Positions 9,006 to 57,130 of a stretch of 64,000 bases of DNA are shown one piece after another; within the stretch, counting starts at the first letter, position 1; each line of letters starts with the position of its first letter. Under the pieces are notes generated by a model. The model did no database searches. It was not told the origin of the DNA and worked only from the letters and a program-made list of their open reading frames with translations. Location of the stretch: NCBI RefSeq assembly GCF_900635775.1, contig NZ_LR134167.1, positions 336,001-400,000 on the forward strand, in the 5' to 3' direction. The stretch comes from Avibacterium volantium. Lineage in GTDB: Bacteria; Pseudomonadota; Gammaproteobacteria; Enterobacterales; Pasteurellaceae. The translations under genes and the position numbers were made by a program.

Positions 9006-10460
9006 ATGTCTGAAATCCAACAACTTCAACCTACCTTGTTGTGGAAATGGTTCGATCAAATCTGCGCCATTCCTCACCCTTCTTATCACGAAGAAGCACT
9101 GGCTAACTTCATCGTAAACTGGGCAAAAGAAAAACAATTTTTTGTCGAGCGCGATGAAGTCGGCAATATTTTAATTCGCAAGCCTGCAAGCGCAGGTATG
9201 GAAAATCGTCCTACCGTGGTGCTGCAAGCTCATCTTGATATGGTGCCACAAGCCAATGAAGACACCCAACACGATTTCCAAAAAGACCCTATTCAACCTT
9301 ATATCGAAGGCGAATGGGTCACCGCCAAAGGCACAACCCTAGGGGCGGATAACGGGATTGGCCTTGCTTCTGCCCTTGCCGCATTAGAAGAGGAAACCCT
9401 TGCTCACCCAGAGTTAGAAGTCTTGCTCACAATGACCGAAGAGCAAGGAATGGAAGGGGCGATTGGTTTGTGTCCAAACTGGTTGAAAAGCCAAATTATG
9501 ATCAACACGGATACCGAAGAAAACGGCGAAATTTATATTGGCTGTGCGGGTGGTGTGAATGCTGATCTCAGTGTTCCTGTGCAAAAAATTGCCAACCCTT
9601 ATGCGCATAGTTACGAGCTAGTATTAAAAGGCTTGCGTGGCGGGCATTCTGGCGTAGATATTCACACAGGACGCGTCAATGCTGTGAAAGCGCTAGTTCG
9701 TTTTCTTGCTCATCTCAAACAAGATCACCCACAAATTGATTTCGCCATTAGCCAAATTAAGGGCGGCTCAGTACGCAATGCCATTCCGCGTGAAGCCTTT
9801 GTAACCCTATGCTTTGATGGCGATCTCGCTCCATTACAAAGTGCGGTGGAAAATTTTGAAGTTTTATTAAAAACCGAATTAGCCATTGCCGAACCCAATC
9901 TGAGCTTGTTCTTACAACCTGTTGAAAAACCAGCACATATTTTTGATAGCCATTCACAAAATAACATCATTAACCTATTTAATGTCTTACCAAACGGCGT
10001 AATTCGTTACAGTGATGCGGTAGAAAATGTAGTGGAAACCTCACTCAGTTTAGGTGTGCTAAAAACCTCAGACAATCAAGTGAACGCCACAATTTTAATT
10101 CGTTCACTGATTGAAAGCGGCAAATATTATGTGCAAGAAATGTTGAAATCTTTGACCGCACTTTGTGGCGCAAGCGTCAATTTCGCTGGCAATTACCCAG
10201 GTTGGGAACCGCACCCAGACAGCAAAATCTTAGCCTTAACCAGCCAAATTTACGCGGAGATTTTAGGCCATCAACCTGAAATAAAAGTGATTCACGCAGG
10301 GTTAGAATGTGGCTTGCTGAAAAAAATCTACCCTAATTTAGACGTAGTTTCTATCGGCCCAACTATTATCAATGCTCATTCCCCTGATGAAAAAGTGCAT
10401 ATCCCCGCCGTACAAACCTACTGGCAATTACTCACCAGAATTTTGGCTGAAGTGAAGTAA
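9006..10460 (+). CDS. pepD: Aminoacyl-histidine dipeptidase (peptidase D)
   Basis: A 484-residue cytosolic zinc metallopeptidase of family M20 that cleaves Xaa-His dipeptides such as carnosine. Metal-site motifs are visible in order: [19 protein letters not shown], the catalytic glutamates in [10 protein letters not shown], the TDTEE ligand segment, RGGHSGVDI of the dimerisation region, and HAGLECGL near the C-terminus. A Shine-Dalgarno-like GAGGAAAAAACG precedes the ATG. Two uptake sequences lie inside the gene. Confidence 0.96.
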
Positions 10461-10473
10461 TTCATTAAAATAT

Positions 10474-10511
10474 AAGTGCGGTGGAAAATTTCGAGATTTT
10501 TTACCGCACTT
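10474..10511. terminator. Uptake-sequence dyad terminator after pepD
   Basis: AAGTGCGGT (10474-10482) and ACCGCACTT (10503-10511) form the stem, extended by pairing AAAAT/ATTTT and followed by a T-run. It sits between convergent pepD and the transporter gene. Confidence 0.85.
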
Positions 10512-10523
10512 TTTATTTAAAAG

Positions 10524-11873
10524 CTAAGCTACATCTTTTGATTTTCTAGTTTGATATACAACTAAAATTGAGAAAATAATTGCGGCAACAACGGAGAGTA
10601 AATCAGCACCTACCCAGAAATAAGCAAGGGAATCAAAATCATAAATTTTATTACCTGCAGTATCAATCACGGTGGTTTTATCAATCATAAAGCCAGTTAA
10701 GAATTCCCCCGCTGCTGCACCGGCATAACCAAATACGCCCATCATTCCTAATGCAATGCCTGAAGCAGATTTATGAGAAATATCGGTGGCTAATAAACCG
10801 CCCAAGAAACAAAGTTGAATACCTAAGGTGATACCGAATACAGAAAGTGCAATAATCGCAAACCAAGTATTCCCTGCTGGAGCAAATAAAAATGCGGCGA
10901 GAGAAAGGGCATTTAGTAGGCTTACCACAACCGTCATAATATTACGTTTTCCTTGTAAGAAACGATCTGACAACCAACCTGAAATAATTGTCCCTAAAAT
11001 CCCAACAATACTGTTTACGCTAATGATAGAGGCAGCTTCCAGTGTAGTATAGCCTTTTCCATTTTCAAGGAAAAATACGCCCCAACTATTTACGCCATAA
11101 CGTCCAATGTACATACAACAAGAAGCTACTGCAAGCACCCAAATAGCTGGGTTTTTAATCACATCCCATTGATGTTTTAAAACCTCTTTGTTGTCGAGTT
11201 CCTCTGTTTGTTTATTCATTGTAATAATCGGCTTAAATCCACAAGCGGCAGGGGAGTCCTTCATAAACATCATCGCAACAAGAACACCGAGTAATCCCAT
11301 TATTCCCGCAAAGCTAAAACCAAATCGCCAGCCAAATGTGGTAATAATCGCTGCGGTAACAATAAAGGTTATCCCTTCACCTACATTATGAGCAACTGAC
11401 CAAAATCCATAGTAAGAACCTCGTTCTTTATCATCATACCAACGTGAAAGTGCTACTACACAAGGACCTACACCCATTGATTGTACCCAACCGTTAAATC
11501 CCCAAATGATAGTAAGAAAAATAGCACTAGTCGTCATTCCCATGGCAAAATTACATAATGCGGAGAAAAATAATCCTACCGAAAGGTAACGTACAATATT
11601 TGAGTGATCTGCCACTGCACTATTAACAAATTTACCAACCGCATAGGTAATAAAAATAGCGGAGCCTATCACCCCAAGTTCTGTTGGCGTCAAAATATTA
11701 TTATTGACTAAGGCAGGCTTAGCGACATTAAAAGATAAACGACAAACATAATAAATAGCGTAAGCAAAAGAGAATGCCCAAAAACTTTTCATTCTTGTGC
11801 TTTTAAACATTGCCTCGGTGTAATCTTTAAGTGGAATAGCTGGGCTTGCTTTGAAAAAATTTAAAATAGACAT
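10524..11873 (-). CDS. Organophosphate:phosphate antiporter (MFS, UhpT/GlpT family)
   Basis: A 449-residue major facilitator protein with about 12 hydrophobic segments. Both arginines that bind the phosphate group in GlpT/UhpT appear conserved: one in YYVCRLSFNVAKPAL (Arg45) and one in YIGRYGVNSWGVFFLE in the second half. The family exchanges internal phosphate for an external phosphorylated metabolite (sugar phosphate, glycerol-3-phosphate or phosphoglycerate); the substrate here cannot be read from sequence. The gene lies 12 bases downstream of a phosphatase gene on the same strand and no uhpABC-type regulator is adjacent, so import followed by dephosphorylation is a reasonable inference. 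Confidence 0.85.
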   Translation of the reverse strand: MSILNFFKASPAIPLKDYTEAMFKSTRMKSFWAFSFAYAIYYVCRLSFNVAKPALVNNNILTPTELGVIGSAIFITYAVGKFVNSAVADHSNIVRYLSVGLFFSALCNFAMGMTTSAIFLTIIWGFNGWVQSMGVGPCVVALSRWYDDKERGSYYGFWSVAHNVGEGITFIVTAAIITTFGWRFGFSFAGIMGLLGVLVAMMFMKDSPAACGFKPIITMNKQTEELDNKEVLKHQWDVIKNPAIWVLAVASCCMYIGRYGVNSWGVFFLENGKGYTTLEAASIISVNSIVGILGTIISGWLSDRFLQGKRNIMTVVVSLLNALSLAAFLFAPAGNTWFAIIALSVFGITLGIQLCFLGGLLATDISHKSASGIALGMMGVFGYAGAAAGEFLTGFMIDKTTVIDTAGNKIYDFDSLAYFWVGADLLSVVAAIIFSILVVYQTRKSKDVA

Positions 11874-45775: not shown

Positions 45776-48367
45776 CTATCCGCGTTGCATTTTCTTTAAT
45801 TGATATAAATAAGAAAGCGCTTGTTTCGGGCTCATTTCATCAGGATCAAAGTTTTCAATCATCTGCCAAAGCGCATCTTTCTGCTCATTTTCTTCCATTA
45901 ACAACAGCTCTCCTTGTCCTTGCTGTTGCATTGCATCTACATTTAACTGATTGTTTTGTTGGGAGAATTTTTCTAACTGCGCCAGTTTTTGTTTGGCGAG
46001 TTTAATCACCGATTGCGGAACGCCTGCCAATGCCGCCACCGCCAAACCGTAACTTTTACTTGCCGCGCCTTCTTGCACCGCGTGCATAAAGGCGATGGTG
46101 TCGTTATGCTCCACCGCATCTAAATGCACGTTGGCAATGCCTTTTAACTGCTCAGGCAAAACGGTCAGCTCAAAATAATGCGTAGCAAATAAGGTCAGCG
46201 ATCGTACTTTTTGCGCAAGCCATTCTGCACAAGCCCAAGCAAGGGAAAGTCCGTCATAGGTGGACGTGCCGCGCCCAATTTCATCAATAAGCACTAAGCT
46301 GTTTGCGCTGGCTTGATGCAAAATATTCGCCATTTCCGTCATTTCGACCATAAAGGTTGAGCGCCCTGAAGCCAGATCATCTGATGCGCCAATACGCGTG
46401 AAAATGCGATCGATCGGGCCGAGCATAGCTCTTTCTGCTGGCACAAAAGATCCCATATAGGCCATTAGCGTGATCAATGCAGTTTGACGCATATAGGTGC
46501 TTTTTCCCCCCATATTCGGGCCAGTTATGATCAATAAATGACGATCTGCACTCAGTTTGACTGGGTTGGCAATAAACGGATTTTTGGACACTTGTTCCAC
46601 CACAGGGTGGCGACCATTTTGAATATCCACGCCAATTTCATCGCTAAAGGTTGGCGCAACATAGTTCAGGGTTTCTGCCCGTTCCGCTAAGTTGGTTAGC
46701 ACATCTAATTCTGCCAAAGCAAGGCTTGCCAGCTGTAATGCACCTAAGTGCGGTAATAATTCATCGAAAATTTCTTCATAAAGTTGCTTTTCCAGCGTAA
46801 GCGCCGCGCCTTTGGCTTTCAGCACTTTATCTTCATAGGTTTTTAATTCAGGAATAATGTAACGTTCCGCATTTTTGAGCGTTTGACGACGAACATAGTG
46901 AATAGGCGCTTTATGTACTTGCCCTTGGGGAATTTGAATATAATAGCCGTGTACCGCATTAAAACCAATTTTTAGGGTGTCAATGCCGGTGCTTTGTCGC
47001 TCCCGTTGTTCCAAATCCTCCAAATAACGGGTTGCGCCATCAGACAGCGAACGCCATTCATCAAGCTCGGCGTTAAAGCCTTCCGCAATCACGCCGCCAT
47101 CACGAATCAATAAAGGCGGATTTTCAATAATCGCGCGTTCTAATAGATCTAATTGCGCTGAAAAATCGGCAATTTGTTGAGAAAATGCAGCAAATTGCGG
47201 ACAATGTTGTTGATTAAGATAATCTTGAATCGCAGGAATTTGCGCGAGCGCGGTGCGTAAACGGGTGAGATCCCGTGGACGCGCTGAACGCAATGCCACG
47301 CGCGCTAAAATCCGTTCCATATCCCCCACTTGTTGCAAGTGCGGTTGAAATTCTGCCACTAAATCCTGTTGCAAAATTTGACTGATGGTTTGTTGGCGTA
47401 AGGTTAATTTTTCACGATCGCGAATCGGTTGGTGAATCCAACGTTTCAGCAAACGACTCCCCATTGGGGTAACACATTTGTCTAGCACGGAAGCAAGGGT
47501 ATGCTCTGTGCCACCTGTTAAATTTTGGGTGAGTTCTAAATTCCGTCTTGTGGCGGCATCTAATTGAATATTCTCATTATTTTGTACCAAACTGATGCTT
47601 TGAATATGGGGCAACGCGGTGCGCTGAGTTTCCTTGGCATATTGTAACAAACATCCCGCAGCGCAAAGCCCAAGGGGGGATTTTTCTACCCCAAAGGCGC
47701 GTAAATCTTGCGTACCAAATTGACGATTAAGCTGCTCAATGGCAGTTTTTAATTCAAATTCCCAAATGGGACGGCGGCGTAATCCCTTTGCATTTTCAAT
47801 TAAATAACGATCTTCAAAATCTTCACAATAAAGTAATTCCACAGGCTGAATGCGCTGTAATTCCGCTTGCAAACTCTCTTTGCTAGCAGGCTCACTCAAC
47901 TGAAAACGCCCCGATGCCATATCCAAAGTTGCCAAGCCAAATTTGTCTTTTTCCTGATAAACCGCAGCAATCAAATTATCCTGACGTTCAGGCAACAAGG
48001 CTTCATCACTGATTGTTCCGGGGGTAACAATGCGCACAATTTGGCGTTCCACCGGCCCTTTTGCCGTGGCAGGATCGCCCACTTGCTCGCAAATCGCCAC
48101 ACTTTCGCCAAGCTGAACTAATTTCGCTAAATAGCCCTCCACCGCGTGATAGGGCACACCCGCCATAGGAATAGGCTGCCCTGCCGACTGCCCACGTTTG
48201 GTCAAGGAAATATCCAACAATGCCGCCGCTTTTTTTGCATCATCATAAAATAATTCATAAAAATCCCCCATTCGATAAAACAGCAAAATCTCAGGATTTT
48301 CTGCTTTCAATCGAAGGTACTGCTGCATCATTGGGGTGTGTTGGCTATTTTTATCGTCTAAGTTCAT
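45776..48367 (-). CDS. mutS: DNA mismatch repair protein MutS
   Basis: 863 residues. The mismatch-binding Phe-x-Glu is in [13 protein letters not shown] near the N-terminus; the ATPase has Walker [28 protein letters not shown] and the helix-turn-helix end with the C-terminal dimer segment. The gene is intact. An IS1016-like element sits 66 bases upstream of its start codon and may have altered its promoter. Two uptake sequences are inside. Confidence 0.97.
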
Positions 48368-48433
48368 TGTACTACCTAAACAGTTTTTTTGATTTATAGT
48401 GTTTCATTAGGAAATAATTTTAGCTTAAAAATA

Positions 48434-49147
48434 GGGGCTGTAGTAGATTAGCCCTAAATTTCACACCATTTTCGCAATATTTTTAACTGCTCTTTTGGTG
48501 TCCCAAAGTTAAACCGAAATTCACATTCCTTCAAGAATAAGGGAAAGTTTTTTTCGGTTAATTCCATTATATTTTCGCAGTATCCGCTTCGCCTGATTCC
48601 AAAAATTTTCAATGCCATTAATATGATTTTGTTTCACCGCAAATAGCTCGGAATGATTGATTCGTTCGTGGTGAAATTCACTCACATCAAGCGCATCATA
48701 ACTGCGATAAGTGTCCGTATAAACCCAGCTATCAGGCTTGATTTTTCTTTTAATAACAGGGAGTAATGTTTCACTCTTGGTGTTTTCAACCACAACAGTA
48801 AATACCTTTCCTTGTCGTTTTAGTCACCCAAAAACAGCAACTTTTCCAGCCGCTCCTCGTCCTCGTTTTCCCTTTCGATGACCACCAAAATAGCTTTCGT
48901 CTAGTTCAATTTCCCCCTCAAAAATCTCGTTAACTTCAAGGGATAAATGATAGCCAATCACAAGCCTGATTTTATGGTAGAACAAAGCGGCTGTATTCGG
49001 TTGAATATCTAGCAAATTTGCTGCCGTTCTTGCAGTAACTTCTGCGACAAAAAACTCAAGCAGTTTTTTCTGTATAGATTTCTTTAATTTACAATATGTT
49101 ATCTTCATTTTTGTAGTATAGCATTGTTGCTAATCTACTACAGCCCC
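48434..49147 (-). mobile_element. IS1016-like insertion sequence (IS1595 family), copy 2
   Basis: A 714-base element with the same 19-base terminal inverted repeats as copy 1, flanked by an 8-base duplication TAAAAATA (48426-48433 and 49148-49155). It is in inverted orientation to copy 1 and carries the same internal TGA and the same seven-A frameshift site. It is three bases longer because it keeps a codon that copy 1 has lost. Confidence 0.94.
48454..49108 (-). pseudogene. IS1016-like transposase, interrupted by a stop codon and a frameshift
   Basis: Same structure as copy 1: an N-terminal 94-codon frame ending in TGA, an in-frame continuation, then a frame change at a run of seven A residues (minus strand) before the normal C-terminus. 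Compared with copy 1 it has an extra Ile codon in LLPVIKRKIKPD. The visible DDE-type motifs (ELDESYFGG, YTDTYRSY, GIENFWNQ) are intact. Confidence 0.88.
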
Positions 49148-49265
49148 TAAAAATATGGTGTTATTTATATTTATTTTAGGTTGTATTTAATAAAAAAGCT
49201 ATTGATGGTTGTAATGAAAGCGGTGGGAGATGTATAGAATATTCTTGATATAACTCAAGTTAGGC

Positions 49266-49298
49266 GAAAATAATGGGGTATTGAACAACCCCATTATT
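49266..49298 (-). terminator. Terminator of the porin-autotransporter-chondroitinase block
   Basis: Stem AATAATGGGGT / ACCCCATTATT with an 8-base loop and an A-run on the left (a T-tract on the minus strand), just after the lyase stop. Confidence 0.8.
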
Positions 49299-49313
49299 TA
49301 TTTCTGGGTATTT

Positions 49314-52300
49314 TTATTTATATAATAAAATCTCTTCAGGAATACCAAAGAAACTGCTGAATACCAGTTCTGTCGTTGAACCTGAAGCTTTCACTTTTAC
49401 TTTAGGATTAGCTTGTTTAACTTTCCAAACGCCATTAAGCGTTACTTTCACTGCCAATGGTTTTGGACGTTTTTCATTAACGATATTTAAGTTAGTGGTA
49501 ACGCCACTTACCACGAGTGCATCACCATCTTGCTTAGTCATCACAATAGCTGGCATATTCGCTGATTTCACTAAATCATCTTCAATATTGCCTGATTTAT
49601 AGAACGCATAACCATTTACCTGTGAGAGTCTATCTTTGACGATATGTGCATTACTTTGTGCAGAAAACTCATAAGGTTTATTACCGCTCTTAAGTTGCGA
49701 TGCAAGATTTTGCATTTTGCTTGGTGTTGCATCAAGAATCACTAAGTATTCGTAGCCTGCATTATTTCCTTGTTGACTGTGATCTAACCACGCAGAACTA
49801 AATACACCTTGTGTTTCTTTACGCGCCATTCCAACATAACGCTTATCTGGCTCACCTTGAATGGATTTTTGTTTCTGTTTTACCACATAGCCTTGTGGTG
49901 CATTCGTGATTAAATAACCATTGCCATCACCATCAATGAGCCAATCTCCCGTTTTAAAGCTTAATGGGCTTGAACTACTTACTGTTTTGCCGTTAAGTAA
50001 TGCATTGCCACTACTATCACTTGATAACTGGAATAACGTGGTTTCTACGTCTTTGTTATTATTACTGCTACGAATATCTGTACCGACCATAATTAAATGA
50101 TCATCGGCAGCAAGAACGGTTTTCTTCGCAGTAAATTTTGAATCAAAGTTCGTCATTCCAGAAGGTGACAATAAAAGCGATGCCATCATTCCGTATTTCT
50201 GTTGTAAAGAAGATGTTCCATTATAAGGCGTTTCTCCTCGCAACATTAAGGTATGCGTAACTGGGCTATTAAGCTTATCAAAAGGTAGGTGGATCGCGGT
50301 TATCCCTGGTAAACGGTTCCAATCCCACCCTGCTTCCACAAAACCTTGTTCACTTGGTTTTTTATGCGAAAGAATTTGCGCAGAGCCATTACTTTGATAA
50401 CGTCCATAACGGTTTTCTTCAAAATAAATTTCTGATGACCATACATTGCTGTTATAAGTCTTCAACGTAACCATTTTGTCATTAAAACGGTGAATACCAA
50501 ATGCCCCACCATTAAATGCCCAGAAACCTTGTGGCAATTTCGCAGGTGCAATTTCTTGCTTAAATATTGCCGCACTTTGTTTCGCTGTTTTACCTGCAAG
50601 AGTCAAGTAAATACCTGCTAATTCTGTATCTACCTTACCTTTATTGGCTAATGCTAACCAGCGGTATGAGTCTGCAATAGAATTTAGAGATTCGGTGGCA
50701 AATGGGTGACGTCCACTAATGCTAATCCCTGTATTTGGGTTACTATAAATCCAAGCTGAAACGAGGGCTTTTTTCAGATTATGATAAGCCTCATCTTTTA
50801 CAGCAAAAGCTGTACCACTGAATAAATAAGCTAATCCAGCCGTATTTGGAAATGCTGGGAAAGCATACCCTGGATAATGTCCATTATGACGCCAAGCCGT
50901 ACCATCTGCACGCAAGCCATCTTTTGAACCTGGTACATTTTGAGAAAGTGAACCACTAATATAATTTGCAAAAGAGGCAACCAAACGACCACGTTCTTTT
51001 GCATCTGTTTCTAAAAATAGTAAGGCTAAATGTTGACGAGCAAGTGTATTATAATAGTCCAAGTTAGAGCTATCAGGCGTTAATACCATATCAAAACTGT
51101 CTTTAAACTCTCTTGCATACCATAATAAAGCATCATAGATGGTTTTCTGTAAATTTGCTTGTGCCAAAACATCACGCATTAAAAATGCGGATAAATACCA
51201 CCAACGTGAGCTGTATCCCCAGTGGTGAGTGGTGATTAATCCACTTCCTTTATAGAATCCTTGATCAATCAAATGCTCAGTTAAGAGAATATACATATTC
51301 GCCAGCTGCTGACGTTCCGCATTATTGCGTGTTTTATTGTAAGCACGGCTAATGTTGTACATTAAGGTAGAATAATCTGCTAAATCAATATATTCATCGA
51401 AAAGCTTTTTATCCTCTGGCTTCATATGTCCCATTTGATAGCGATTTTTTTGCTTACCGGTAAGAACGTGTCGTCCAGTAATCACACCATCTGCACTCTT
51501 ACGAATAGTAAAACTATCAAACTTTTGTTTTAAGTCTTTAAAGTTAATGTTTTCTTTAAAACGTGGATCGGCTTCATAAAGCAAGAAGTCTTTAAAACGC
51601 GTTTCAACCGTATTTAGATCTTGCTGTAATTGCGCGGCAGAAACTTTTGGTAAAGGGCTATATTTATAGCGTACTTCCGGTTCAGTAATGCGTGTTTTAA
51701 CGTGATAATCTGACCATTGATAACGGAAATCATCGACCGACAACATAATGTGATCGATAAAAAATCGTCCTTTTTTCACCGCTCTTGGAGCCATAAAACG
51801 AATAGAATCAATCTTGCTACCAATTCCGCGAGAAATAGAAAGCGCAGGACCATCACCGCCTCCATCTTGCGTTCCACCAGAAACGCGAGAGCCTGCCATT
51901 TCACGGTATTCCATATCATTATTTAATGATACTCCCACTGCACGCCAACCTTTAAAATCTAATTTAACGCGCAAGCCTGCATCACCATTATTATAAGCTG
52001 TTACCCCTTGTCCCAAATCAACGATCAAATAATCATCAATTGGCGTTTCATTATAAATAAAAAAGGAAAATAATGGTGTAGAACCTCTTCCCCAAGCTTC
52101 TCTGGATTCTGCATCACTAGGAACATAATAATCACGATGAAAAACAATGCTACTGCCCGCAGTCCAATTCCATTCTAAAGAGGTTTTCCCTGTAATAGAA
52201 CGAAGATCAGTTAAGGAAAGCTCGCTGCCTTTACTCACGGTAAAATCTTTAAGCACCGCGCTATTTACGAAAGGCTCAATCTTAGCCTGCATAATATTGT

Positions 52301-52397
52301 TGGGATCACGCGTTTCACTTGCCAAGCTACTACCTGCCATAAAAGTGGCAGATAGGGCAAGTAATGAAACGTTAAGTTTTTTCATTTTACCTGACAT
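49314..52397 (-). CDS. Chondroitin sulfate ABC lyase (polysaccharide lyase family 8)
   Basis: A 1027-residue secreted lyase that eliminatively cleaves chondroitin and dermatan sulfate, and usually hyaluronan. It resembles Proteus vulgaris chondroitinase ABC along its whole length as far as I can recall that sequence. The catalytic residues correspond with a constant offset: His504 in TAWRHNGHYPGY, Tyr511 in the same segment, Arg563 in SGRHPF, and the Glu in WSSEIY (about 656). A signal peptide ends at SLA (about residue 26). Layout: N-terminal jelly-roll carbohydrate domain, helical catalytic domain (about 240-600), C-terminal beta domains. AAGGAG seven bases before the first ATG supports the start. 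It is 11 bases downstream of the autotransporter gene and probably cotranscribed with it. No sulfatase, glucuronyl hydrolase or sugar transporter lies nearby. Confidence 0.93.
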   Translation of the reverse strand: MSGKMKKLNVSLLALSATFMAGSSLASETRDPNNIMQAKIEPFVNSAVLKDFTVSKGSELSLTDLRSITGKTSLEWNWTAGSSIVFHRDYYVPSDAESREAWGRGSTPLFSFFIYNETPIDDYLIVDLGQGVTAYNNGDAGLRVKLDFKGWRAVGVSLNNDMEYREMAGSRVSGGTQDGGGDGPALSISRGIGSKIDSIRFMAPRAVKKGRFFIDHIMLSVDDFRYQWSDYHVKTRITEPEVRYKYSPLPKVSAAQLQQDLNTVETRFKDFLLYEADPRFKENINFKDLKQKFDSFTIRKSADGVITGRHVLTGKQKNRYQMGHMKPEDKKLFDEYIDLADYSTLMYNISRAYNKTRNNAERQQLANMYILLTEHLIDQGFYKGSGLITTHHWGYSSRWWYLSAFLMRDVLAQANLQKTIYDALLWYAREFKDSFDMVLTPDSSNLDYYNTLARQHLALLFLETDAKERGRLVASFANYISGSLSQNVPGSKDGLRADGTAWRHNGHYPGYAFPAFPNTAGLAYLFSGTAFAVKDEAYHNLKKALVSAWIYSNPNTGISISGRHPFATESLNSIADSYRWLALANKGKVDTELAGIYLTLAGKTAKQSAAIFKQEIAPAKLPQGFWAFNGGAFGIHRFNDKMVTLKTYNSNVWSSEIYFEENRYGRYQSNGSAQILSHKKPSEQGFVEAGWDWNRLPGITAIHLPFDKLNSPVTHTLMLRGETPYNGTSSLQQKYGMMASLLLSPSGMTNFDSKFTAKKTVLAADDHLIMVGTDIRSSNNNKDVETTLFQLSSDSSGNALLNGKTVSSSSPLSFKTGDWLIDGDGNGYLITNAPQGYVVKQKQKSIQGEPDKRYVGMARKETQGVFSSAWLDHSQQGNNAGYEYLVILDATPSKMQNLASQLKSGNKPYEFSAQSNAHIVKDRLSQVNGYAFYKSGNIEDDLVKSANMPAIVMTKQDGDALVVSGVTTNLNIVNEKRPKPLAVKVTLNGVWKVKQANPKVKVKASGSTTELVFSSFFGIPEEILLYK

Positions 52398-52408
52398 TGC
52401 CCGACTCC

Positions 52409-55400
52409 TTAGAATGTATTGCTTAAACCAAAACCAACCACAGTTTCTTTGTAATTGCCGAATTTGTTGTATGACAATGAACCAGATATGTTCAAGTTTT
52501 CAGTAATGTCTAAACGTGCATTTAACTTCGTTGAGAATTGGTTACCCGTGATATTGTTCACGTTGAAATCATAACCAGTTGTCGCACTATCACTTGCTAA
52601 GCGGTAACTCATTGTTGCATCAGAACCACCCATTTGTTTGTAATATTGCAAATCTAGGCTTGGTACAAATTTACCAATGGCAAGGTCAAAGCGTTTCCAT
52701 AATGAAATACCACCACCAATATGTTGGGCGCTATATTTTTGCGTGTCTGCTGATAAAGCAAATGGCGAACCCGTTTCTTCCCAACCCTCATTATTAAACC
52801 ATTGTTGTTTTAGGCTTAAGAACGGACGTAATCCCACGCCCTTAACTTCAGTATCAATACCACCAGTGAGCTGATAACCAAATTGGAAACCTGAGTAATC
52901 ACCCGTTGCGGTAGTATTACCAATTTGACGAGTGCTATCTACAGAGTAAGTTCCTCCCAGTAAGTTTGCTTCAGCGAAATAAAGATCACCTTTCCACTCA
53001 ACATAAGGCATAAAGATAAATTGGGTTACTTTTTTATCAATATCAGAACGTTCAGAAGCAAGTGAGCTACGATTCACGCCAGCAGAGAAACCGATTAATG
53101 CTTCATCATTAATCTGACGATCCATACCAAAATGAACCCCATAACGATTCAATTTATACTCACCGCTGTCTTTACCGCGTCCAAGTGAAGTGGTTGCCCA
53201 TAAATTCCAGCCATCTTCACGTTCATAGCTTGGTAACTGATGGCGATAAGCTAAGGTGCGTTGCTCAATATGGCTACGCATTTGCTCACCCCACACCCAA
53301 GCGGCAGTAATGTCTGAGGCGCTAAGGTCAGGCATCATTTGGTTTGCTAAGCGTCTTGCTTGTTCATTAGTGCGAGCGGAACGAATAATTTGCTCTGCTT
53401 CGTTATCTGAACCATTAAATTTCTCATCCAAGATGTAACTTACAAAAGGTTGTTGATCTTCTGGCAATAATGAAACAAATGCATTACGGCTTGGGTCTCT
53501 TAAGAACTCAACAGCCCCCGCTTTATAACGAACAACGTATTGATTAGCCTGTGACTCTTTTTGCAACTCACCTGCTTTTTGGTTATAAACTTGCCAGCTA
53601 TCTGGCTCAGTATAAACCTTATCTTCTTTTTGTAATAAAGAATTACCTTGATTGTCTACCAGATCAATTTCTGTTTTATCCCCAACAGTTACACCATTGC
53701 CAGTACTAAATAAAGTATAATCTTTATCTGTAATATCCTGAGTGGTTACTCCTTCGGCAAATTGCACTAATAATTTCTGATTTGCTACATTTACCGAGCC
53801 GGCTTTTAACAATGGATTTGACGTTGCTTGATCTTCCACTGCTAAAGTTAATGTACTATCAGGATTTGCTGAACTAAAGGTAGCATTGCCTAAATCCACG
53901 CCAGAATTTGCTACATCAATCACCGCATCCCCTTTATTGGTCACAGCAATATAGTTTTTGCCCTCTATTTGAGCTTGAATATCTTTTGTTAAACGTGGTA
54001 CACCACCTGATGCCGTATTATCCAAGGTCAGCTCATAGATTTCGGCTTCATAATTTAATGAATAATCCTGTGCAGATAAGGTTAATGCCCCATTTTTATG
54101 GGTAGATACGATATTTTCTGCAAGAGTAGTCTCTTTAAGATCACTCAGTGATTGTCCATCTTTATCTAAAACTTTAATAGTAGCTAATCCTACTGTTGAA
54201 TTTTCAGCATCTGCTAAATCAAGTAATTTCACTTTATCAAAGCCCTGTAAAACAGAACCTGAAGTGTTTTCATCATAGGTGTAATTACCTAATTTTAAAG
54301 TAAGTGCGGTATTTTCAATGTTTGCTTTTGCCACTGAAAGCAAAGACTCAGAGAAACTCGCTGAAGTGTTTTGATCAACACCCGCTACATTAAGCACTAA
54401 AGTATTATCCGCTCCACCTGAGTTAAAAGTCAGATTGCCCCAATCGATTTTTCCACTGTTGGCAAGGGAAATTTCTAAATCACCAGTATTGTTGATACTT
54501 TTCAAACCGTTCACTGCATTAATTTCAGAAAGTACGGTGGAATCAATTTTAGCCGTATTACCTACATCCGCAACAATATCCAGACGAGAAGCTCCATCAT
54601 AAGTATAAGTTACTTTATAGGCATTACCCTCAACTTTAGATGTTATCGTACTACCATTTTTTACAAGGGTCATATATTGATGATTATTAAATGCTGTTGA
54701 TATCTCATCAATCTCTAATGAATTACCATTTTTATCAAACAATTTCACTGCATTTTCAGCCAGTGAAACAATTTCACCAGCAAATAGCGTAAAGGTGAGT
54801 TTATCTCTACCACTTAATGCCACTGCATTGTTATGAACATCAGCATCAGCCAAATCGGTAAATTTCACTTTCACTTCTTTGTTACGCACATCTGCTTTAG
54901 CAACCGTAACCAATGGGGCGACATTGGCAGTTTCTAAATTGGTTTCAAATGAAAGTTTAGAATCTGCAAGAGAAAGGAATTCAGCGGTGTTCCAATTATC
55001 ACCTTTTTGATCAGAAACGATCACTAAATTACCGTCTAAGTTACCAATTTCATTAATGCCTGTAATGCTATGCGAACGTAAACGGCTTTCTGCATTTGCA
55101 TCTTTTATGCCTTTGTACACATAAAGTCGAACGCCAAGTTTTTCTGAATTTTGGGATCTATTTTCGATAGGACTTGTAATCGGTTGAGCGCCTGTCACAC
55201 TTTTATAGGGGTTAACCTCAATATTTCCATCAATGCTCCCTCCCGAAACTTTAATAAATAATGGTCGGTTTCTACCTAGAGTTTTCTGTTCTTTTTTAAT
55301 TTTAATAGCATTTTCACTACCAACTATCTTACTCCCCTCTAATAAATAAATACCGTGGTTATTCTTAATATCATAACCAGCATAACCATTAAATTCTCCA

Positions 55401-55801
55401 TCAAACTCCAAGCCTATTTTACCGGATATCGTAACTGGCGTTAATGAAGCAGGTTTCAACCCACCATCTTTAGCACCAATAAATAAAGCTGAGCTGAGAT
55501 TAGTTGTATCATCCAATAATAAAGCAACTCCAGAGGAAGCCGTTAAATCATTTTTTACAAAAATACTTCCCTGATTTTGTTTAGAATTATTTTTTGTGAT
55601 TTCAACAGCATTACCTGATGAAACATTAATACAATCTCCCTGCGAAAGAATAACAATATTTGCTTTCTTTCCCTGATCAAATAACTTATTCTCATACGAC
55701 TTTGTTGTATCCAAACACGCAGCCTGAGCCGCAAAGCTTGCGCTATATAACGCCATTCCAACAAAAACAGAGAGCGGTAATAATTTCAAATTTTTCATCA
55801 T
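52409..55801 (-). CDS. Autotransporter with three-fold repeated passenger
   Basis: An 1130-residue type V secreted protein. It has a signal peptide (MKNLKLLPLSVFVGMALYSA, then ASFAAQA), a passenger of about 840 residues, and a C-terminal beta-barrel (from about residue 867, NLWATTSLGRG, to the terminal GFGLSNTF with the outer-membrane-insertion Phe). The passenger shows three related modules of about 185-190 residues beginning near 247, 432 and 622; each has a GD/GN opening, an NSG/GN strand segment, an A..V.N..L stretch and a D.NG.SL-type segment. No protease triad, RGD or Cys-rich part is seen. Role unknown (adhesin or GAG binding possible). One uptake sequence (54302-54310). AGGAGAATA precedes the start. 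Confidence 0.85.
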   Translation of the reverse strand: MMKNLKLLPLSVFVGMALYSASFAAQAACLDTTKSYENKLFDQGKKANIVILSQGDCINVSSGNAVEITKNNSKQNQGSIFVKNDLTASSGVALLLDDTTNLSSALFIGAKDGGLKPASLTPVTISGKIGLEFDGEFNGYAGYDIKNNHGIYLLEGSKIVGSENAIKIKKEQKTLGRNRPLFIKVSGGSIDGNIEVNPYKSVTGAQPITSPIENRSQNSEKLGVRLYVYKGIKDANAESRLRSHSITGINEIGNLDGNLVIVSDQKGDNWNTAEFLSLADSKLSFETNLETANVAPLVTVAKADVRNKEVKVKFTDLADADVHNNAVALSGRDKLTFTLFAGEIVSLAENAVKLFDKNGNSLEIDEISTAFNNHQYMTLVKNGSTITSKVEGNAYKVTYTYDGASRLDIVADVGNTAKIDSTVLSEINAVNGLKSINNTGDLEISLANSGKIDWGNLTFNSGGADNTLVLNVAGVDQNTSASFSESLLSVAKANIENTALTLKLGNYTYDENTSGSVLQGFDKVKLLDLADAENSTVGLATIKVLDKDGQSLSDLKETTLAENIVSTHKNGALTLSAQDYSLNYEAEIYELTLDNTASGGVPRLTKDIQAQIEGKNYIAVTNKGDAVIDVANSGVDLGNATFSSANPDSTLTLAVEDQATSNPLLKAGSVNVANQKLLVQFAEGVTTQDITDKDYTLFSTGNGVTVGDKTEIDLVDNQGNSLLQKEDKVYTEPDSWQVYNQKAGELQKESQANQYVVRYKAGAVEFLRDPSRNAFVSLLPEDQQPFVSYILDEKFNGSDNEAEQIIRSARTNEQARRLANQMMPDLSASDITAAWVWGEQMRSHIEQRTLAYRHQLPSYEREDGWNLWATTSLGRGKDSGEYKLNRYGVHFGMDRQINDEALIGFSAGVNRSSLASERSDIDKKVTQFIFMPYVEWKGDLYFAEANLLGGTYSVDSTRQIGNTTATGDYSGFQFGYQLTGGIDTEVKGVGLRPFLSLKQQWFNNEGWEETGSPFALSADTQKYSAQHIGGGISLWKRFDLAIGKFVPSLDLQYYKQMGGSDATMSYRLASDSATTGYDFNVNNITGNQFSTKLNARLDITENLNISGSLSYNKFGNYKETVVGFGLSNTF

Positions 55802-55823
55802 TATTCTCCTATGGTTTCCCTAA

Positions 55824-56867
55824 TTAAAAGGTAAATCTCATTCCTAAACGTAGATAATTTTGTTTTGATGTTTCTTTATCTATGTTCAAGAATTTCACGT
55901 TTTCACGATAGTATTCCGCCATTAGTGTCACATTATTATTGATTTGATACTGAGCGCGTAACGCATAACGAGTTAGATCACGTTTTTCAGTGAAAAGACC
56001 TGTACATTTACCTTTATCTAAATTACATTCATCTTTCACTTTAATTTTGCCGAAAATAGATTTACGAATATAAGGTGAGAAGGTTAATCCAAAAGGCGTT
56101 TTATACGTCATATAGATACGCAACTGAGGATTGCTTTCTGTATTAGTCGTGTTATCCCAAACGGGTTTATCATCATCTTGACGTTTGCGTACATCGTTAT
56201 ACGCAATTTCAAAATTGAAGTTTGGCGAAACTAAATAACGTAAGCCTTGTTCAATCTCCCAACCAAATTGGGTTTTTCTGGTATGTTTTGCAACATCAGC
56301 AGAATTATTTGAACCAATGTATTGCCGATTATTTTCATATTTCACAACTTCAGGTTTAAAACGACCATTCCATACTAAGCGATCTGTAATATTATAGTTA
56401 TAGTAAAGATCCATGTTGTAATAGTCGGTTGTATGATTTGCCCCTGCTGCACTTAGCGTTTTATCTTGACGAATATTAAAAGAAGGTTGCACCCAACCAT
56501 TATTAAAACGATAACGATAACTTACCCCAAAATCTAAACGTTGATAATCACGTTTACCAGCAACTTGTTGCATTTGCGCACCGTTAGCTGCAGGATTTTT
56601 ATCTTTAACTGACTGAGTATAGCCTTTGCTTCGATTTTGACGGAAGCCTAAGTTAAACGTCCAATTAGAATTATCTGGAGAAACGGACATACCTAAACGG
56701 TAACCGTGGTAATTTCGCCCTTTCCCAGTATTTATGCCATTATCATCATAAACATCGTTATATCTTACATCTTCCCAGCTAAGGAAAGCATTAACATTGG
56801 CTGCTTGAGCTTGAAAGGCAACAAAAGAAAGTGATGATGCTAATAAAACCGGTTTTACTATTTTCAT
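55824..56867 (-). CDS. Outer-membrane porin, KdgM/OmpG-like
   Basis: 347 residues from MKIVKPVLLASSLSF, preceded by GGAG; the frame extends five codons further upstream. A signal peptide ends at about QAQAA. The rest is alternating amphipathic strands rich in Tyr, Asn and Arg, ending in YLRLGMRFTF with the C-terminal Phe of outer-membrane barrels. It resembles monomeric oligosaccharide channels such as KdgM or OmpG in pattern, but I cannot place it in a family firmly. First gene of the block, 22 bases before the autotransporter, with a candidate CRP site upstream. Likely role: passage of chondroitin oligosaccharides. Confidence 0.72.
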   Translation of the reverse strand: MKIVKPVLLASSLSFVAFQAQAANVNAFLSWEDVRYNDVYDDNGINTGKGRNYHGYRLGMSVSPDNSNWTFNLGFRQNRSKGYTQSVKDKNPAANGAQMQQVAGKRDYQRLDFGVSYRYRFNNGWVQPSFNIRQDKTLSAAGANHTTDYYNMDLYYNYNITDRLVWNGRFKPEVVKYENNRQYIGSNNSADVAKHTRKTQFGWEIEQGLRYLVSPNFNFEIAYNDVRKRQDDDKPVWDNTTNTESNPQLRIYMTYKTPFGLTFSPYIRKSIFGKIKVKDECNLDKGKCTGLFTEKRDLTRYALRAQYQINNNVTLMAEYYRENVKFLNIDKETSKQNYLRLGMRFTF

Positions 56868-56959
56868 AATAAGTATCTCCAATTGAAGTAAATTAATGAA
56901 ACGCTATTTTAATATATTCGCAAAATAAAAAAGAAATTGAAACAAGATAAGATAGATTA

Positions 56960-56975
56960 TTTGAAGTAGATCACA
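56960..56975 (-). promoter_or_regulatory. Candidate CRP site upstream of the porin-autotransporter-chondroitinase block
   Basis: TTTGA-N6-TCACA on the plus strand (TGTGA-N6-TCAAA on the minus), 9 of 10 consensus matches, 93-108 bases from the porin start. It suggests catabolite control of the block. Confidence 0.6.
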
Positions 56976-57130
56976 AAATAAAAATTAATGAAGAGAAACG
57001 ACTTCAAACAAAATGATTCTTCAATTCTGCACTTTACAAAGGGCTATAAGGACAGAGACAGTTGCTAGCTTTTCGGTAGGATATTATTTGGAACACAGTT
57101 CACAAAATAGAAAAAAGATCAAAATTTTAC

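Follow-up and report, generated by a model that had tools for sequence, protein, structure and literature searches.

A three-gene cluster in Avibacterium volantium codes for a porin, an autotransporter and a lyase. It probably serves the first steps, at the outer membrane and in the periplasm, of a PTS-type pathway by which some Gram-negative bacteria use chondroitin or dermatan sulfate, sugars of connective tissue. We base this on the order of the genes, the catalytic residues of the lyase, the recurrence of the trio at eight loci, its linkage to PTS and other pathway genes in Volucribacter, Proteus and Yersinia, and the presence of most of the pathway's genes in the A. volantium genome. The CymA/OmpG fold of the porin, its pore-facing arginines and lysines, a CRP-like site in the Pasteurellaceae, and pairs of autotransporter and lyase in Photobacterium also point this way. 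Our explanation is weakened by the distance of about 1.6 Mb to the PTS locus, by a second PL8 lyase in the genome (so the trio may be redundant), by lyase contexts that have no trio, by the acidic passengers of the autotransporters, and by genome G056, which has the porin and an autotransporter nearly without a passenger and has no match to our lyase. The main features of the window, by which we mean the whole stretch of 64,000 nucleotides that was analysed, are:

56957..56978, minus strand: CRP-like site TTTTGTGATCTACTTCAAATAA, 89 bases upstream of the porin's ATG (position computed from that distance)
55824..56867, minus strand: OmpG/CymA-like outer-membrane porin, 347 amino acids with its leader (PF13505 and predicted fold)
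52409..55801, minus strand: type Va autotransporter, 1130 amino acids (PF03797 at 868-1109)
49314..52397, minus strand: PL8 chondroitin ABC lyase I-type enzyme, 1027 amino acids (Pfam and match to 1hn0)
49268..49299, minus strand: terminator-like hairpin 3' of the lyase (12 pairs, -15.8 kcal/mol, z -3.81)
48432..49149, minus strand: IS1595-family element with perfect 21-bp inverted repeats, between the lyase and mutS

The lyase is the best understood of the three proteins. Its Pfam domains (Lyase_N, Lyase_catalyt and Lyase_8) correspond to the N-terminal, catalytic and super-sandwich domains, and it matches Proteus chondroitin ABC lyase I (PDB 1hn0) with 1140 bits across residues 9-1025. H504, Y511, R563 and E656 align to positions 501, 508, 560 and 653, which we take to be the catalytic numbering of chondroitin ABC lyase I, and these residues are identical in all eight of the lyases that belong to a trio. 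Judged by eye, its leader is of the Sec type, plain and without a lipobox; there is no secretion domain. The P. mirabilis lyase with a trio matches 1hn0 with 2125 bits over 1-1020, and by this likeness in sequence the well-known chondroitin-cutting enzyme of Proteus belongs to the same kind of trio.

The AlphaFold model of the porin (mean pLDDT 87.5) has 14 strands by our count. Foldseek's best match to the model was OmpG (2iwv, TM 0.61/0.75), with CymA lower by E-value at a TM of about 0.66/0.73, so the protein is predicted to be an OmpG-like 14-strand barrel. A sequence search of the PDB gave no match at E 1. The orthologues from P. mirabilis and Y. ruckeri score above the cut-off for PF16946 (Porin_OmpG), while the window porin and the E. 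elysicola orthologue have no match to it; two homologues carry the OmpG-family name from their sources. By strand parity on the model, the predicted pore-facing positions of this one porin include 23 R+K and 13 D+E, and R57, R110, R250, R268 and R300 are invariant (26/26). Across 369 genomes of the class, a search for the porin found it in the window genome only, and such sampling easily misses rare families.

The autotransporter has a leader (by eye), a passenger, a linker helix and a beta-barrel with a terminal F, as expected for type Va, and the barrel's Foldseek matches are EstA, NalP and EspP. In the passenger, a module of ~110 amino acids occurs about three times in divergent form: in Smith-Waterman alignments of chosen segments, 0/500 shuffles were as good for A-B and for A-C, and 20/500 for B-C. 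A BLAST comparison of the passenger with itself listed no repeats. The model of the passenger is poor, with low to moderate confidence.

The genes run porin, autotransporter, lyase on the minus strand, with gaps of 22 and 11 bases. The porin begins at the ATG at 56867 (the mechanical reading frame begins at a TTG, at 56882). The reading frames, Pfam domains, gaps and catalytic tetrad bear out the three-gene locus of the preliminary description. A CRP site had also been proposed before the porin, and we found a CRP-like site there; 6/300 shuffles score equally well, and all four Pasteurellaceae triplets have such a site upstream of the porin. Outside the Pasteurellaceae it is prominent only in genome G393, and not in Y. 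ruckeri, P. mirabilis or E. elysicola. Within the family the site is kept even though the genomic place of the trio differs in every genome. A terminator had been proposed after the lyase: 0/200 shuffles are as stable as the 12-pair hairpin, but the hairpin was not among the matches of a consensus terminator scan, in which the terminator and promoter counts of the region were not above those of shuffled sequence. The window gave no matches in Rfam or tRNA scans. No SusC/SusD was found adjacent to the trio; the flanking open reading frames are the IS1595 element, mutS and recA, the last two named from sequence. The transposase frame of the element is broken by a stop codon, and its place at the edge of the trio is probably incidental.

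We had to reject the idea that this arrangement is unique to the window genome. The trio, in the same order and on one strand, recurs in 8 of the 18 ABC I-type lyase contexts that we examined, which is more than chance would lead us to expect and bears out the co-conservation on which the preliminary description had in part staked its proposal of a locus for degrading glycosaminoglycans (GAGs). It was found in two Avibacterium, Volucribacter, Pasteurella langaaensis, Proteus mirabilis, Yersinia ruckeri, Endozoicomonas and G393, whose hosts include birds, fish, people and marine invertebrates. All eight lyases that are at least 46% identical to the window lyase have the trio, and none of the ten at 39-41% do. 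These ten contexts (L029, L030 with two lyases, L031, L032 on an 8-kb contig, L033, L077, L079, L108 and L109) were each viewed within about 8-20 kb, and the OmpG-type porin was not found in them by profile. A KdgM porin occurs in one of them (L077), and the trio is thus one of several solutions; in Y. ruckeri such a porin is present alongside the trio. In two of the ten, both from Photobacterium, a short autotransporter lies directly before the lyase, without this porin.

Among 140 Pasteurellaceae genomes, four have a full-length lyase, and the same four have a full-length porin. The pairwise identities of the three proteins are correlated at 0.94-0.96 over 28 pairs, with kinship ignored. Among protein-database entries, the lengths of the longest contig match between porin and lyase in 5 cases and between porin and autotransporter in 6, which is indirect evidence at most. 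On a lyase tree of 18 rows (L032, L108 and L109 were left out) the triplet needs one change, but the support of 47/17 and 51% of bootstraps does not settle whether it had a single origin.

The preliminary description had noted the absence of a PTS, a GH88 hydrolase and sulfatases. This is true of the neighbourhood, and no GH88 or sulfatase match lies within the window, but all of these are present about 1.6 Mb away, so we reject their absence from the genome. The chromosome encodes a GH88 (at 1976367), a GalNAc-type (Aga-type) PTS, sulfatases including a Tat sulfatase, a maturase and an RpiB-type isomerase, so the PTS-type GAG set is present genome-wide, although not contiguous with the lyase. 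In profile searches, AgaF, AgaW, IIB, the anaerobic sulfatase maturase, AgaR, NagA, tagatose aldolase and KDPG aldolase were above cut-off, KdgK was slightly under, and AgaE and AgaS were below theirs. KduD/DhuD was not seen in stretches L021 and L022. In Volucribacter and P. mirabilis the trio itself adjoins PTS, GH88 and sulfatase genes, and in Y. ruckeri it adjoins PTS and sulfatase genes.

If the trio is the front end of this pathway, then the porin would admit GAG chains or oligosaccharides to the periplasm without TonB, and the Sec-exported lyase would cut them endolytically there to unsaturated disaccharides. Exported sulfatases would remove sulfate, the Aga-type PTS would take up the disaccharides, and GH88, which has no leader, would split them in the cytosol to unsaturated uronate and GalNAc phosphate. 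The uronate would pass through the RpiB-type isomerase and KDG, and the GalNAc phosphate through NagA, AgaS and tagatose aldolase. CRP probably switches the operon on when better sugars are scarce. In the available parts of these sources, loss of ptsH weakened the growth of P. mirabilis on chondroitin sulfate C (PMC13289894), and the chondroitinase of P. vulgaris is inducible and repressed by glucose (review PMC9067506).

The autotransporter's task is the weak step of this explanation. It may stay on the surface and keep GAG or proteoglycan close to the porin, and we think this possible, though somewhat short of an even chance; we rated it lower because two more very short autotransporters turned up in lyase loci. 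Alternatively, it might act on its own, as an adhesin or biofilm protein, and sit in the operon for shared regulation only. Passengers are acidic in all eight triplets and vary (the proteins have 705 to 1130 amino acids), and the window protein has repeated modules, all of which speaks for this. Nevertheless, we doubt this, because the autotransporter sits between porin and lyase in 8/8 triplets, its barrel identities track those of the lyase, and three GAG-type loci (in G056 and the two Photobacterium) have autotransporters of 397-457 amino acids, which leave scant room for an adhesin. The constant adjacency, which extends to the porin-less Photobacterium loci, would also suit a lyase that acts outside the cell, placed or held by the autotransporter, and mainly opens host matrix for spread, with nutrition secondary. 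In the parts of these papers available to us, Edwardsiella chondroitinases are treated as virulence factors (PMC8714846), and transposon mutants in a chondroitinase gene of A. paragallinarum, one of its two PL8 genes, formed less biofilm (PMC13119452). The lyase leaders of Y. ruckeri and G393 have a possible lipobox (by eye). But the window lyase has neither a lipobox nor a secretion domain, and the linkage to PTS, GH88 and sulfatase genes points to feeding, so we consider an extracellular role unlikely.

It seems less probable still that the trio reached its place by transfer or relocation and is now a relic, uncoupled from the pathway. It does lie between mutS and recA, which adjoin each other in genomes G005 and G004, with the IS1595 element at its edge, and just two of the seven Avibacterium genomes searched have the full trio; G002 has no more than a lyase remnant. 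On the other hand, all three frames are open, the catalytic residues and the CRP-like site are present, and the genome has most of the pathway genes.

A literature search found no description of a porin-autotransporter-lyase trio. PTS-type GAG loci are already known (PMC9067506 and PMC8222515, both in the parts available). The chondroitin ABC lyase operon of Proteus vulgaris and P. mirabilis contains a sulfatase, two lyases, GH88 and a PTS, and the review's available text (PMC9067506) mentions neither porin nor autotransporter for it. Its lyase is of the same type as ours (50% identity), with the same cytoplasmic pathway, and P. mirabilis H63 has the porin and autotransporter upstream, as in our locus; Proteus has everything in one region, whereas in the window genome trio and pathway are split. 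Chondroitinase ABC from Proteus is a widely used enzyme. The hyaluronan locus of Vibrio alginolyticus resembles the system described here in having PL8 lyases, GH88 and a PTS without SusC/SusD, but in the available text of that paper the words porin and autotransporter are absent, and the authors invoke a presumed TonB-dependent transporter, encoded elsewhere, for the outer-membrane step (PMC8222515).

Klebsiella CymA and E. coli OmpG have the same barrel fold as the window porin, at 10 to 14% identity in structural alignments, and belong to sugar loci, but the substrate of the window porin would be polyanionic, unlike theirs. The autotransporter is like UpaB in that UpaB has been studied with glycosaminoglycans, and we know of no lyase partner for UpaB. 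In the available text of PMC6488583, UpaB bound GAG-like molecules and did not bind chondroitin sulfates A, B or C. By analogy, the trio also resembles the SusC/SusD GAG loci of Bacteroides, with surface capture, a channel and a lyase, although those have a TonB-dependent pair where the trio has a passive-type porin and an autotransporter. We suggest, tentatively and as something we would not yet bet on, that porin and autotransporter are a TonB-independent counterpart of SusC/SusD, in which the autotransporter would capture sulfated GAG chains at the surface and pass them to a wide OmpG-like channel, with the pull of periplasmic cutting by the lyase driving import. The porin and autotransporter kept in the presumed lyase operon are a named candidate for how polyanionic chains cross the outer membrane without SusC/SusD. 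If they are such a counterpart, then they would be an unrecognised outer-membrane step of chondroitin use of the Proteus type.

The trio of porin, autotransporter and lyase had been described as a glycosaminoglycan (GAG) degradation locus; it is real, and broader than claimed: the trio occurs in eight genomes, this one included. In the window (positions 336001-400000 of a 2.23-Mb contig), it comprises three genes on one strand:

55824-56867, minus strand: porin (long ORF; PF13505 in a domain scan)
52409-55801, minus strand: autotransporter (long ORF; PF03797 in a domain scan)
49314-52397, minus strand: lyase (long ORF; three PL8 chondroitinase domains in a domain scan)

As had been claimed, the gaps are 22 bases (porin to autotransporter) and 11 bases (autotransporter to lyase). 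The lyase is indeed full-length and of the chondroitin ABC lyase type: almost its entire length matches PDB 1hn0, the chondroitin ABC lyase I of Proteus (1140 bits), with a catalytic tetrad of H504, Y511, R563, and E656. A hairpin sits 3' of the lyase and a CRP-like site (TTTTGTGATCTAC) lies 5' of the porin, in agreement with the terminator and candidate CRP site of the preliminary description.

The lyase has a match in 12 of 140 Pasteurellaceae genomes, but a full-length copy in just 4 (63-100% identity). The same four encode the full-length porin, which otherwise has a weak partial match in genome G087, and in all four the order is porin, autotransporter, lyase. So the proposed check for conserved triplets found the trio in every Pasteurellaceae genome with a full-length lyase, and also in four genomes outside the family: Yersinia ruckeri, G393, Proteus mirabilis H63, and Endozoicomonas elysicola. 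All eight trio-linked lyases are at least 46% identical to the window's, and the one from P. mirabilis closely resembles the Proteus enzyme of known structure (2125 bits over 1-1020). Across the eight trios, with some starts chosen by hand, the porin-autotransporter gap is 22-121 bases and the autotransporter-lyase gap is 5-156 bases. Ten further lyase contexts, with lyases of 38.8-41.5% identity, lack the trio; searched with profiles built from the eight trio porins and eight barrels, they yielded no such porin. In order-wide samples (394 genomes), the lyase was matched in 8, and five genomes gave a porin match, which in two of them was a weak fragment. Among the Pasteurellaceae genomes, G002 has a C-terminal lyase remnant (L026 ~9749-10000; 84 residues, 85% identity, one stop) that, judged by eye, adjoins sialic-acid genes. 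Two 4.1-Mb P. mirabilis records, NZ_OL790811.1 (45 annotated features altogether) and NZ_OL790812.1, are filed as plasmids and look like chromosomes.

The trio's location varies. It sits between mutS and recA in the window, adjoins fucose genes in Avibacterium paragallinarum (FucI confirmed), adjoins a GAG PTS operon in Volucribacter, and is at yet another place in Pasteurella langaaensis. Because mutS adjoins recA in genomes G005 and G004, where matches to the window end at 48343 and restart at 57082, either this genome acquired the block by insertion or those two lost it. An IS1595-family element separates mutS from the lyase (48432-49149); its 21-bp inverted repeats are perfect, and a stop breaks its transposase frame. 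Just 3' of the A. paragallinarum lyase (L024 10352-12092) are two short reading frames, one with an outer-membrane-barrel-like end; the longer has no Pfam match. The CRP-like site before the porin is kept in all four Pasteurellaceae trios (6, 3, 21, and 4 of 300 shuffles were as good) and is strong in G393 (5/300). It is not distinct in Y. ruckeri (125/300), P. mirabilis (295/300), or E. elysicola (228/300).

The reported absence of a PTS, GH88, and sulfatases is true only nearby: a genome-wide search found all three. There is one GH88. Near it are a GalNAc-type PTS (IIA/IIB/IIC/IID), AgaS, a sulfatase, an anaerobic sulfatase maturase, an RpiB-type isomerase, NagA, tagatose aldolase, AgaR, KdgK, KDPG aldolase, and a Tat sulfatase, although AgaE, AgaS, and KdgK score under their models' cut-offs. 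The sulfatase family has twelve matches, one with an internal stop; some are probably other members of the superfamily. Given the GalNAc-type genes, we infer that chondroitin or dermatan is favored over hyaluronan as the substrate. KduD/DhuD was not seen in the stretches that we read of this genome; it is present in the GAG loci of Volucribacter and Proteus. A second PL8 lyase (at 1198482; 31% identical) is without the trio, and its relatives were matched in 7 of 7 Avibacterium genomes. A Porin_4-type porin lies just upstream of the second PL8 lyase in P. langaaensis (L049 254-1309) and Volucribacter (L047 ~9670-10746, where the start region appears broken).

The link between autotransporters and lyases reaches wider than the porin link, because autotransporters recur in contexts without the trio. 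In both Photobacterium genomes, an autotransporter of 423 or 457 residues is directly 5' of lyase II-type and lyase I-type genes, without an OmpG-type porin (L108 6352-14049; L109 7824-15335); this is a second way in which autotransporters and chondroitin lyases are coupled. In one E. elysicola locus, an autotransporter lies near a hyaluronidase-type PL8. Genome G056, which has no match to the window lyase, encodes at L076 8723-11007 the porin and a 397-residue autotransporter whose passenger is almost missing; the GAG-type locus around them also encodes a Tat sulfatase and a pectate-lyase-like protein. These short forms, in G056 and Photobacterium, speak against a large adhesin being the essential part.

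Nor is simple charge attraction of the passenger to GAGs favored, as the passenger's pI is 4.05-5.12 in all eight trios. The window's passenger has about three divergent copies of a ~110-residue module; in the structure model of the whole autotransporter (mean pLDDT 67.6), it is chiefly the barrel that is well predicted, and the PDB matches are barrels. The autotransporter UpaB binds GAG-like molecules but, in the part of the source available, none of the chondroitin sulfates A, B, and C (PMC6488583). Ranked by E-value, the top match of the porin model (mean pLDDT 87.5) is OmpG; ranked by query TM-score, it is CymA. The porin's pore-facing positions, as assigned by strand parity and hydropathy for this porin alone, hold 23 R+K versus 13 D+E, and R57, R110, R250, R268, and R300 are invariant in 26 of 26 sequences.

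In the accessible portions of the open-licence literature on chondroitin use with porins or autotransporters, we found no paper that describes the trio. As excerpted, a review gives the P. vulgaris operon as lyases, a sulfatase, GH88, and a PTS (PMC9067506); other excerpts report that a P. mirabilis ptsH mutant has a growth defect on chondroitin sulfate C (PMC13289894), that outer-membrane import is assigned to a presumed TonB receptor located elsewhere (PMC8222515), and that two chondroitinase insertions in A. paragallinarum had reduced biofilm (PMC13119452). We read the trio as an outer-membrane module that recurs across genomes and belongs to PTS-type chondroitin utilization. Its role as the front end is well supported by context, and import through the porin is probable.
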